A stretch of DNA of 53,862 nucleotides, taken from the IMG/VR virus record IMGVR_UViG_3300046425_000186, positions 1 to 53,862 of that record. The stretch is one strand, 5' to 3'. The notes beneath the pieces were generated by a model. The model ran no database searches. It was not told the DNA's origin and saw only the letters and a program-made list of their open reading frames with translations. The translations under genes and the position numbers were made by a program. This document shows, in pieces, positions 804 to 53,862 of this stretch. Origin of the DNA: a virus. Position 1 is the first letter of the stretch. Each line of letters begins with the position of its first letter.

Positions 804-2360
804 ATGTCAGACAAGATAGTTAAAAATCTTAGCTTTGGGGACGATGCTAGGAATAAAGTTTTTAATGGTATTGACAAATTAGCAAATGCTGTTAGCTCAA
901 CGCTTGGCGCTGGAGGTAGTTGTGTTTTGCTAGAAGATCAATATGGAAATCCAACAATAACAAAAGATGGTGTAACAGTTGCTGAAAGCGTAGTGTTAAT
1001 AGACCCGGTAGAAAATTTAGGTTGTAACTTGTTAAAACAAGCTGCAAAAAAAACTGTTAAAGAAGCGGGAGATGGCACTACCACAGCTACTGTTTTAGCT
1101 CATTCAATACTTTATGAAGCAAATAAAGTTAAATCAGAGCTAAGCGTAAGAGAATTAAAAAAAGATATAAACAATTCTGTTGAAAGAGTTGTTGATTATT
1201 TAAATAAAATATCTATACCTGTTAAAGATGATATGATAAAGCAAATAGCTACTATATCAACAAATAACGACAAAGAACTAGGCGACTTAATAGGCAAAGC
1301 TTTTGAAAACGTTAAAAACACAGGTGTGGTAATAATGGAACAATCTGATTCTGGTAAAACAGAAATAGAAACAATAGAAGGTTCTCAATATTTTAAAGGT
1401 TTAACAAGTCCTCATTTTGTTACTAATAAAATTAAAAAAACCGCAGAGTTAAACAATCCTCTTGTTTTATTAGTAGAAAATAATGTTGAAAACATAAGAC
1501 AGATACAAAGTGTTTTAGAATATGTTATAAAAAACAATAAGTCACTTTTAATAATAGCGGATTTAAGTCCTGAGGTTTTATCAGCATTAGCAATGAATAA
1601 AACAAAAGGAAACATAAAAGTTAATGTTATAGACGCGCCTGTTTTAGGTGTAAATAGAAAACAAATGTTTGATGACATCGCTTTATTAACAGGAGCAACA
1701 TTGATAAACGAAGACTTGGGTGATGATATGGATTTAATAGATATAGATCATCTAGGCACGTGTTTTAAGTCTATAACAAGTCAAACTGATACTATATTAC
1801 AGTTTAAAGAACAAAGTTCTGAATGTGCTGAAATAATTAAAGATATAGAAAAAAAGCTTTTAACTTGCAAAATACCTGATCAAGTTATAAGTTTAGAAAA
1901 AAGATTAGCAATGCTTTCGTCTAGAATATCTGTAGTAAAAGTTGGAGCTAATTCTGAAATAGAACTTAAAGAAAAAATGGATAGAGTGGAAGATGCTATC
2001 TGTGCTACAAAAGCCGCCGTTAAAGAAGGTATTGTTCCAGGTGGTGGTATTGCGCTTCTAAACGCTTCTCAAAAAGTAAAAGCTTATTCATTAGGCGAAA
2101 AACTATTGTTAAGTGCTATAACCGCACCATACAAGACTATTCTTTCTAATGCAAGCGTTGATAACTTAGATTACCCTAATAAAAAAGGTCAAGGTTACGA
2201 CGTGGTTACAGGAAAAATGGTTAATATGATTAAAAGTGGTATTATAGATCCACTGCTAGTTACTAAAAGTGCATTAAAAAATGCGGCTTCTGTGGCAACA
2301 ACTATACTCTCTACTAATTGTGTAATAAACAACGTTAGAATAAATGAAAGCAATAGGTAG
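804..2360 (+). CDS. groEL: phage-encoded GroEL-type chaperonin (Hsp60)
   Basis: 518 aa, against about 548 for E. coli GroEL. Group I chaperonins form double rings that fold proteins with ATP and a GroES lid. Visible landmarks are TITKDGVTVAESV (contains the Asp equivalent to E. coli D52), GDGTTTATVLA (ATP site), a full apical domain (about residues 185-370), DRVEDAICATKAAVKEG (Asp equivalent to D398) and PGGGIALLNA. The family P-loop LGPKGRN reads LGAGGSC here, and the C-terminal Gly-Gly-Met tail is absent. groES starts inside its last codons, so the two are translationally coupled. It probably helps fold capsid or other phage proteins, either with the host chaperonin or in place of it. The family call is firm; the clients are unknown. 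Confidence 0.97.
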   Translation: MSDKIVKNLSFGDDARNKVFNGIDKLANAVSSTLGAGGSCVLLEDQYGNPTITKDGVTVAESVVLIDPVENLGCNLLKQAAKKTVKEAGDGTTTATVLAHSILYEANKVKSELSVRELKKDINNSVERVVDYLNKISIPVKDDMIKQIATISTNNDKELGDLIGKAFENVKNTGVVIMEQSDSGKTEIETIEGSQYFKGLTSPHFVTNKIKKTAELNNPLVLLVENNVENIRQIQSVLEYVIKNNKSLLIIADLSPEVLSALAMNKTKGNIKVNVIDAPVLGVNRKQMFDDIALLTGATLINEDLGDDMDLIDIDHLGTCFKSITSQTDTILQFKEQSSECAEIIKDIEKKLLTCKIPDQVISLEKRLAMLSSRISVVKVGANSEIELKEKMDRVEDAICATKAAVKEGIVPGGGIALLNASQKVKAYSLGEKLLLSAITAPYKTILSNASVDNLDYPNKKGQGYDVVTGKMVNMIKSGIIDPLLVTKSALKNAASVATTILSTNCVINNVRINESNR

Positions 2361-3048: not shown

Positions 3049-4146
3049 ATGAGTTTTAAATCTAACAGACTTTACTCCAGAAATGAGAACTTGCAAAACT
3101 ACGTTGATACAAACGAGGCTAGAACAAAGGCTTCTTTTGAACAAGGTGGTTTTAATGATGGTACTCCATGGTGGCAAAAAGAATCTTACTTAAAAGCTAC
3201 GGGTAAAGGAACTGGTGATATGGAAAAACCTGTTGAAAAGCAAGTTTGGGCTAATGGCATGGGCGATAATATTGTTGGTGCTTATGAAAGTTGGCAGTTG
3301 CCAGATGATTTAAGGTATGATAATAGATATGTTTCTGATAAAGACAAACAGGGTATGGATTATTTTAAATTTCAAAATAAAAAAAGATATCAAGATCAAC
3401 AACAACAACTACAAACATACGGAACAGCCGGTCAACCAGTAATTTCAAATGAAACTATGAATACAAATAACACAGACAATAACCAACAGTTTGGAATGGC
3501 AGACAACGCTATGGCACAACAACCTCAAGGTAATACTTTTTCAATGGGTGCTATAAATGCTGCTAGCAATATTTATGGAAATTTAGCAGAAAGAACCGCC
3601 TCTGTAAACTCACCTAGCCCGCTAGCTTTAAAAACAAATATTGATCCTTCTAAGGTTTATAGTGCGGTTAATGAGTTAAAAAATACAATGTCACTTGGAG
3701 CTCTTGATAGCAAAACTAATTACATGAGAGATACAGGCCGAACTGGTTCAACTTTATCTTTACCTAGTTTACCAACTAGAAATACAGGTGGAAGTGCTAG
3801 TGGCGGAAGTTATTCTAACCCTAGAGGAGTTTCGAGTACTTCACCAGGAACAAACGCAACTGTGAACACAGGCGAAAATGATAACAAAAATAGCGGCTAT
3901 TCTTTTTTAGATAATAATATGGATATTAAAGTAACAAATCCATATAAAGACCCTTTTTGGGGAACTTACAAAAGAGATAAACAAACTTTCGCAAATAGAA
4001 TTCAAGATGCTAAGGACAAAGGGCAACTAAACAAAGCCGCTAGAATAACAAGAAGAAGAGATAACTGGCAAGACAGGCAAACAGGTAAAGGTACTGGTGT
4101 CGGTAATTTCTTAAGATCTATTAATATATTTAAAGGTAAAAACTAA
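3049..4146 (+). CDS. hypothetical, low-complexity virion-type protein
   Basis: 365 aa, not recognised. The first 120 residues are polar and tryptophan-containing (GTPWWQKES, DNIVGAYESW). The middle (about 120-270) is low-complexity, rich in Gln, Asn, Ser, Gly and Thr, and probably disordered. The C-terminus is a basic helix (KDKGQLNKAARITRRRDNWQDRQ). No signal peptide. It starts 1 base after the preceding stop. Its composition and its place before a block of small basic proteins suggest a virion or assembly component, which is a guess from context. Confidence 0.7.
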   Translation: MSFKSNRLYSRNENLQNYVDTNEARTKASFEQGGFNDGTPWWQKESYLKATGKGTGDMEKPVEKQVWANGMGDNIVGAYESWQLPDDLRYDNRYVSDKDKQGMDYFKFQNKKRYQDQQQQLQTYGTAGQPVISNETMNTNNTDNNQQFGMADNAMAQQPQGNTFSMGAINAASNIYGNLAERTASVNSPSPLALKTNIDPSKVYSAVNELKNTMSLGALDSKTNYMRDTGRTGSTLSLPSLPTRNTGGSASGGSYSNPRGVSSTSPGTNATVNTGENDNKNSGYSFLDNNMDIKVTNPYKDPFWGTYKRDKQTFANRIQDAKDKGQLNKAARITRRRDNWQDRQTGKGTGVGNFLRSINIFKGKN

Positions 4147-53745: not shown

Positions 53746-53764
53746 AGTTATAATTTAAAATTAG

Positions 53765-53837
53765 TTGCGCTGGCCGGATTCGAACCGACGACCTCAAGGT
53801 TATGAGCCTTGCGAGCTGGCCACTGCTCTACAGCGCG
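53765..53837 (-). tRNA. tRNA-Met (CAT), initiator-type
   Basis: 73 nt on the - strand. Acceptor stem CGCGCTG/CAGCGCA with an unpaired C1-A72, D-stem GAGC/GCTC (A11-U24), anticodon loop CTCATAA (CAT), anticodon stem CAAGG/CCTTG, 5-base variable loop, T-arm GTCGG-TTCGAAT-CCGGC and discriminator A73. The 3' CCA is not encoded (CTAA follows). C1-A72 and A11-U24 are marks of bacterial initiator tRNA. The third mark, three G-C pairs in the anticodon stem, is partly kept (A29-U41, G30-C40, G31-C39). It probably starts phage proteins with formyl-Met or supplements the host pool. Confidence 0.92.
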
Positions 53838-53862
53838 ATGTAATATTTTAACAGTAAGCATT

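Follow-up and report, generated by a model that had tools for sequence, protein, structure and literature searches.

An initiator-type tRNA carried by an incomplete podovirus-like genome: a probable phage-encoded support for translation initiation

It has long been asked why phages carry tRNAs, and the question takes a particular form when the tRNA is of the initiator type: codon compensation is not applicable, since such a tRNA reads start codons only. What, then, would a virus gain from it? The question is raised here by a virus record of IMG/VR, incomplete and 53,862 bases long, analysed over its full length (the window), in which a single tRNA was detected. In our opinion the best functional reading is initiator supply or replacement. 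That this is a functional phage-encoded initiator, which would keep initiation capacity up if it is expressed and used to the benefit of the phage, we put at a probability of roughly 0.75.

The window belongs to a relative of the elemo and Cellulophaga podoviruses, and its host is probably a flavobacterium or a near relation of one. PHROG families are matched by its terminase, its portal and its GroEL. The terminase has relatives in an uncultured circular podovirus of 60.9 kb (64%) and in Flavobacterium elemo, Cellulophaga, Tenacibaculum and Maribacter phages, with an identity of about 45% for the elemo phages listed. Related records reach about 60-70 kb. The phage GroEL is also present in elemo phages (with GroES) and in other relatives. 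A cultured elemo phage (L440, MT497065.1) has a CAU tRNA as well, of elongator type and not an initiator.

The tRNA lies on the minus strand, which the earlier note had left unstated, according to both ARAGORN (tRNA-Met(cat), 53764-53837) and Rfam (RF00005, 63.8 bits, E 1.3e-11, 53837-53765). Written 5' to 3' on that strand, it is CGCGCTG-TA-GAGC-AGTGGCCA-GCTC-G-CAAGG-CTCATAA-CCTTG-AGGTC-GTCGG-TTCGAAT-CCGGC-CAGCGCA-A, a full cloverleaf with a CAU anticodon; the discriminator A73 is followed by CTA, and CCA is not encoded. The C1-A72 mismatch and A11-U24 of the earlier note are indeed read in these letters, together with G2-C71, C3-G70 and the anticodon loop CUCAUAA. A second, independent contig (L212/G004) has the identical tRNA, hence we reject the idea that C1·A72 is an isolated sequencing error. 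The description of the tRNA as 'lone' holds within the incomplete fragment and not beyond it, as the contig has no more than 25 nt on the upstream side of the tRNA. A search of IMG/VR with these last 25 bases, aimed at the missing upstream part, returned no match, and a 33-kb record whose RNR protein is identical to that of the window (G026) gave no tRNA match.

Table 1. Location of the features discussed. Positions without a prefix are those of the window; the tmRNA-like loci given are a part of those that exist.
Feature	Position	Strand	Basis or remark
Initiator-type tRNA(CAU), tRNAfMet class, 73 nt, no encoded CCA	53765..53837	-	ARAGORN, Rfam RF00005, initiator profile, covariation in 13 distinct clade members
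5' acceptor strand CGCGCTG, C1 unpaired against A72	53831..53837	-	sequence
Anticodon arm CAAGG-CUCAUAA-CCUUG; A29-U41, G30-C40, G31-C39	53795..53811	-	sequence
Upstream sequence before the contig end, 25 nt only	53838..53862	-	promoter or upstream RNAs not captured
Next downstream ORF, 50 aa	53593..53745	-	no Pfam/PHROG match; ATG 19 nt past tRNA 3' end
Second downstream ORF, 64 aa	53395..53589	-	PHROG 8760, unknown function
Phage GroEL	804..2360	+	PHROG 5725
tRNA-Gln(UUG)	L006:1380-1452		
tmRNA-like RNAs	L526:1581-1659, L656:1501-1579, L534:1674-1746	-	
tmRNA-like RNAs	L657:1501-1579, L006:79-158 and 162-257, L005:3720-3822, L439:7056-7173	+	

Is this tRNA an initiator, as the earlier note proposed, or an elongator tRNA-Met or a tRNA-Ile(CAU) that merely resembles one? 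The latter view may appeal to the CAU anticodon and to A29-U41, which breaks the strict rule of three G-C pairs; the anticodon stem does keep only two of the three, as had been noted. We compared the sequence with a profile of 150 initiators, from which the window sequence and its near-copies were left out, and with a rival profile of 48 other CAU tRNAs. The scores were 61.9 and 38.9 bits, and with the initiator profile ahead by 23 bits we reject the elongator and isoleucine identities. C1·A72 and A11-U24 also speak against them, as does the absence of any strong 1:72 pair in the clade, and we find such a mere resemblance hardly credible.

In published work a mismatch at 1:72, G2:C71, C3:G70 and A11:U24 aid formylation, and the three G-C pairs are a P-site feature; in E. 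coli, use in initiation is impaired once all three of these pairs are replaced (PMC7949028). Cellular initiators with A29-U41 are found, among the matches listed in a scan of the collection, in alphaproteobacteria, Pelagibacteraceae, planctomycetes, verrucomicrobia and Bacteroidales. Since many cellular initiators thus also have A29-U41, three G-C pairs are usual and not defining, and their partial absence does not exclude membership of the class. The assignment of the window tRNA to a genuine initiator (tRNAfMet) class is supported as far as its sequence goes, and charging, formylation and P-site use may be expected of it.

The relatives agree with this assignment. An initiator-type tRNA is present in 12 of 44 records gathered as RNR relatives, some of those without a tRNA being fragments. 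For covariation we used 13 distinct clade initiators, some of them from terminase-linked records. In this set 98.2% of the stem cells are paired and 10 of 21 pairs are altered on both sides; the covariation score is 0.444 against 0.118 for shuffled sequences, and far above slid controls too. The pairs that assist formylation, G2-C71, C3-G70 and A11-U24, are invariant across the 13 sequences, and so is G30-C40. Position 1:72 is C·A, A·A, G·A, U-A or U·G in them, never a strong pair and never G-C, while 31-39 is G-C, C-G, U-A or G·U. Given the strong covariation of the stems, a 1:72 position that is never strong and the invariance of A11-U24 and G30-C40, we consider the initiator class to be conserved in the clade.

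Certain features do count against a functional initiator. A29-U41 departs from the rule of three G-C pairs, some relatives lose G31-C39 too, and several have C73. In L524, L525, L530-L536 and L538 the initiators combine U1-A72 with C73, after which comes CTA; C73 is an uncommon discriminator in a methionine tRNA. MetRS is expected to prefer A73.

The tRNA is an accessory of the clade, which comes and goes but stays an initiator where it is present. On an RNR tree of 38 rows its presence requires 8 changes, at least 5 of them forced by supported branches, although these counts are perhaps too high because some of the records scored as lacking it are fragments. It seems to be dispensable, since more than half of the related records, fragments included, have no detected tRNA. 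A tRNA-Gln(UUG) was observed in four clade records; some that lack the initiator carry it instead (L523, L527, L528, L529), and L006 has both.

The earlier note had the tRNA as carried by the phage, and the relatives bear this out, as in them it is internal to contigs, among phage early genes (in G002, for example, 44.7 kb into 59.3 kb). It is possible to imagine instead an integration leftover, in which the end of a host tRNA-fMet gene served as an attachment site or was taken along by imprecise excision. tRNA genes are common attachment sites, and the window tRNA is at the very end of its contig. However, the internal position in relatives does not fit such an origin, nor does the distance from the surveyed Bacteroidia initiators (85% identity for the best cell), nor covariation within the phage lineage. 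No integrase was found among 28 window proteins scanned with Pfam and/or PHROGs, a subset of the ORFs. We regard this explanation as quite implausible.

The site of the tRNA recurs in the clade. In most members CTAA directly follows the tRNA and an ATG comes 14-24 nt later; the downstream genes differ, and clade tRNAs of different sequence occupy the same kind of site. A homologue of the PHROG 8760 protein follows the tRNA directly in G004, and one follows the tRNA in L005. Such a layout may suggest that the tRNA is mainly a processing signal that sets free a short leader ahead of the early gene downstream, with its role as a tRNA being secondary. But short intergenic gaps are general in these phages, and the conserved initiator determinants are not required by a role of that kind, which we therefore judge to be very unlikely.

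Where did the tRNA come from? The tRNAs nearest to it are those of phage contigs, with 100, 98.6, 90 and 89% identity, while the best sampled cell reaches 85%, and on this basis we reject a recent capture from the surveyed Bacteroidia hosts. The likeness to Bacteroidia initiators is nevertheless extensive: A11-U24, a mismatched 1:72, the loop CUCAUAA, A73 and, in many, a CCA that is not encoded. The loop is identical in all 30 Bacteroidia initiators that we compared in full. These initiators are mostly U1·U72 (28 of the 30, the other two being C1·A72), whereas the window has C1·A72. The surveyed Bacteroidia hosts are also nearly all G29-C41, in contrast to A29-U41 in the window; among the matches listed from 295 genomes, 50 of which had no pattern match, all but two have GGG/CCC. 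In a sample of 70 viral initiators, which is not matched by host, positions 29-31/39-41 are AGG/CCU in 30, GGG/CCC in 19 and UGG/CCA in 13. In phages the first anticodon-stem G-C pair, 29-41, is thus lost to another pair more often than it is retained, which we report as an observation and not as a test.

The window tRNA is ordinary in kind, as phages are already known to carry initiator tRNAs. Similar tRNAs are widespread among phages, with matches in 269 INPHARED records, and occur in many unrelated ones. A 634-kb metagenomic phage (LR745206) has a 90% match, and the similar tRNA-Met of this and other known phages (Serratia BF, Cronobacter GAP32, mycobacteriophages, Prevotella Lak phages, Cellulophaga phi17:2) are at most 90% identical over all or part of the window tRNA and are candidate initiators. 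Several of the known carriers are large phages with many tRNAs, and phi17:2 has a tRNA array, whereas the window comes from a podovirus relative, about 60 kb in size, and the part of it that was captured shows one tRNA.

The position of the difference from surveyed hosts, in the anticodon stem, brings to mind counter-defence. Host toxins that target tRNAs (VapC-type nucleases, acetyltransferases) might spare a phage initiator, so that initiation continues after the host initiator is lost. VapC toxins cut near the anticodon stem (PMC8522696), that is, in the region of the difference. Moreover, in the clade 29-41 is A-U in nearly all initiators and 31-39 varies, as against hosts among the Bacteroidia with GGG/CCC almost throughout. 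Other RNAs related to translation also often occur near the tRNA in relatives. Anticodon-loop mutations were proposed in 2023 in eLife as a means by which phage tRNAs evade nucleases (PMC10264068). What the two have in common is a phage tRNA that departs from its host counterpart close to a region known as a toxin target; the difference is that those tRNAs have changes in the loop, and ours differs in the stem. As the loop CUCAUAA is shared with the host initiators examined, loop-based evasion is not supported. Further, A29-U41 is found in cellular initiators also, and phages facing VapC-LT2 are reported in the eLife survey to tend not to carry tRNA-fMet (PMC10264068). In our opinion, counter-defence is an unlikely main role for this tRNA.

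We return to initiator supply or replacement. What was observed in its favour is that the RNA folds as a tRNA, that the initiator determinants are present and conserved under covariation, that the tRNA is gained and lost patchily, and that it is placed in the leader of early genes. According to this reading, the tRNA would be transcribed as part of an operon of early genes; RNase P and RNase Z of the host would trim it, and the host enzyme that adds CCA would complete it. Host MetRS would then charge it and host Fmt would formylate it, after which it would work at the ribosomal P site, alongside the host initiator or in its place. The most likely gain for the phage would be an initiation capacity that is sustained while phage mRNAs flood the cell, or while the host initiator is lowered or damaged. 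As to the mRNAs of the phage itself, a 4-base Shine-Dalgarno match is found in 3 of 63 window leaders, against a chance expectation of about 3.4%. According to PMC9976891, Bacteroidia ribosomes ignore Shine-Dalgarno sequences anyway; the lack of such sequences in the window is what one expects in Bacteroidia and does not single out the tRNA. With codon compensation having little meaning for an initiator, the clade offers a clean test of supply, replacement of a damaged host tRNA and control of initiation, and the existence of cultured flavobacterial relatives puts this test within reach.

It is also possible, if rather doubtful, that the initiator tRNA belongs to a phage RNA cassette through which translation in the host is acted upon. 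Near the tRNAs of relatives we found tmRNA-like RNAs of 65-131 nt with alanine identity and without the mRNA-like domain. One of them, an 82-nt RNA in L526, scores 64.7 bits with the Rfam tmRNA model (gathering threshold 47), with 304 positions in the middle of the model reduced to 12 nt; weaker copies are matched by that model in other relatives. A mini-tmRNA model built from 13 copies (threshold E <= 0.001) gives matches in 29 of 50 records of the clade, of which a few are weak. The 25 copies listed consist of an acceptor and a T arm and, in most, also a short middle stem. The alanine identity pair G3·U70 is present in 23 of 26 mini-tmRNAs, and the acceptor and T-stem pairs co-vary, in an alignment that was fitted to the structure. 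Thirteen of the 18 initiator-bearing records have a mini-tmRNA, mostly within 1.7 kb and on the same strand. None was found in the window, whose sequence breaks off 25 nt upstream of the tRNA, so that a copy of its own, if there is one, would be missing from it. G004, the contig whose tRNA is identical, has a tmRNA-like RNA in the same region.

A full-text literature search returned no description of such mini-tmRNAs, and among isolate phages blastn gave only partial matches round the T arm. The nearest described RNA is a methylophage tmRNA made of two pieces (PMC9004378), and the mini-tmRNA of this clade looks undescribed. Weak matches to the model (36-38.5 bits, 72-110 nt) were seen in 5 of 40 Bacteroidia genomes (L651-L655), which could be ordinary tRNAs or prophage copies. 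If the cassette is real, it could provide the phage with an initiator while charging, occupying or diverting trans-translation (SmpB/EF-Tu/AlaRS); the mini-tmRNAs, if real, would give a virus an unusual hold on ribosome rescue. The RNA cassette of the relatives merits a separate study. Further structured RNAs were observed upstream of the initiator in L005 (about 3330-3925), L533 (about 1100-1500), L534 (minus strand) and L538. They include an element that recurs, CTAGACGAGTAGCTTAATTAG ... ACATAAGTGAATAGCTAG; a tRNA-like RNA with CTAGTTAC at its end; and AGAGAGATGGCAGATATGCAG ... CTTCGTGGRCACATCTCTCT, which a long stem closes.
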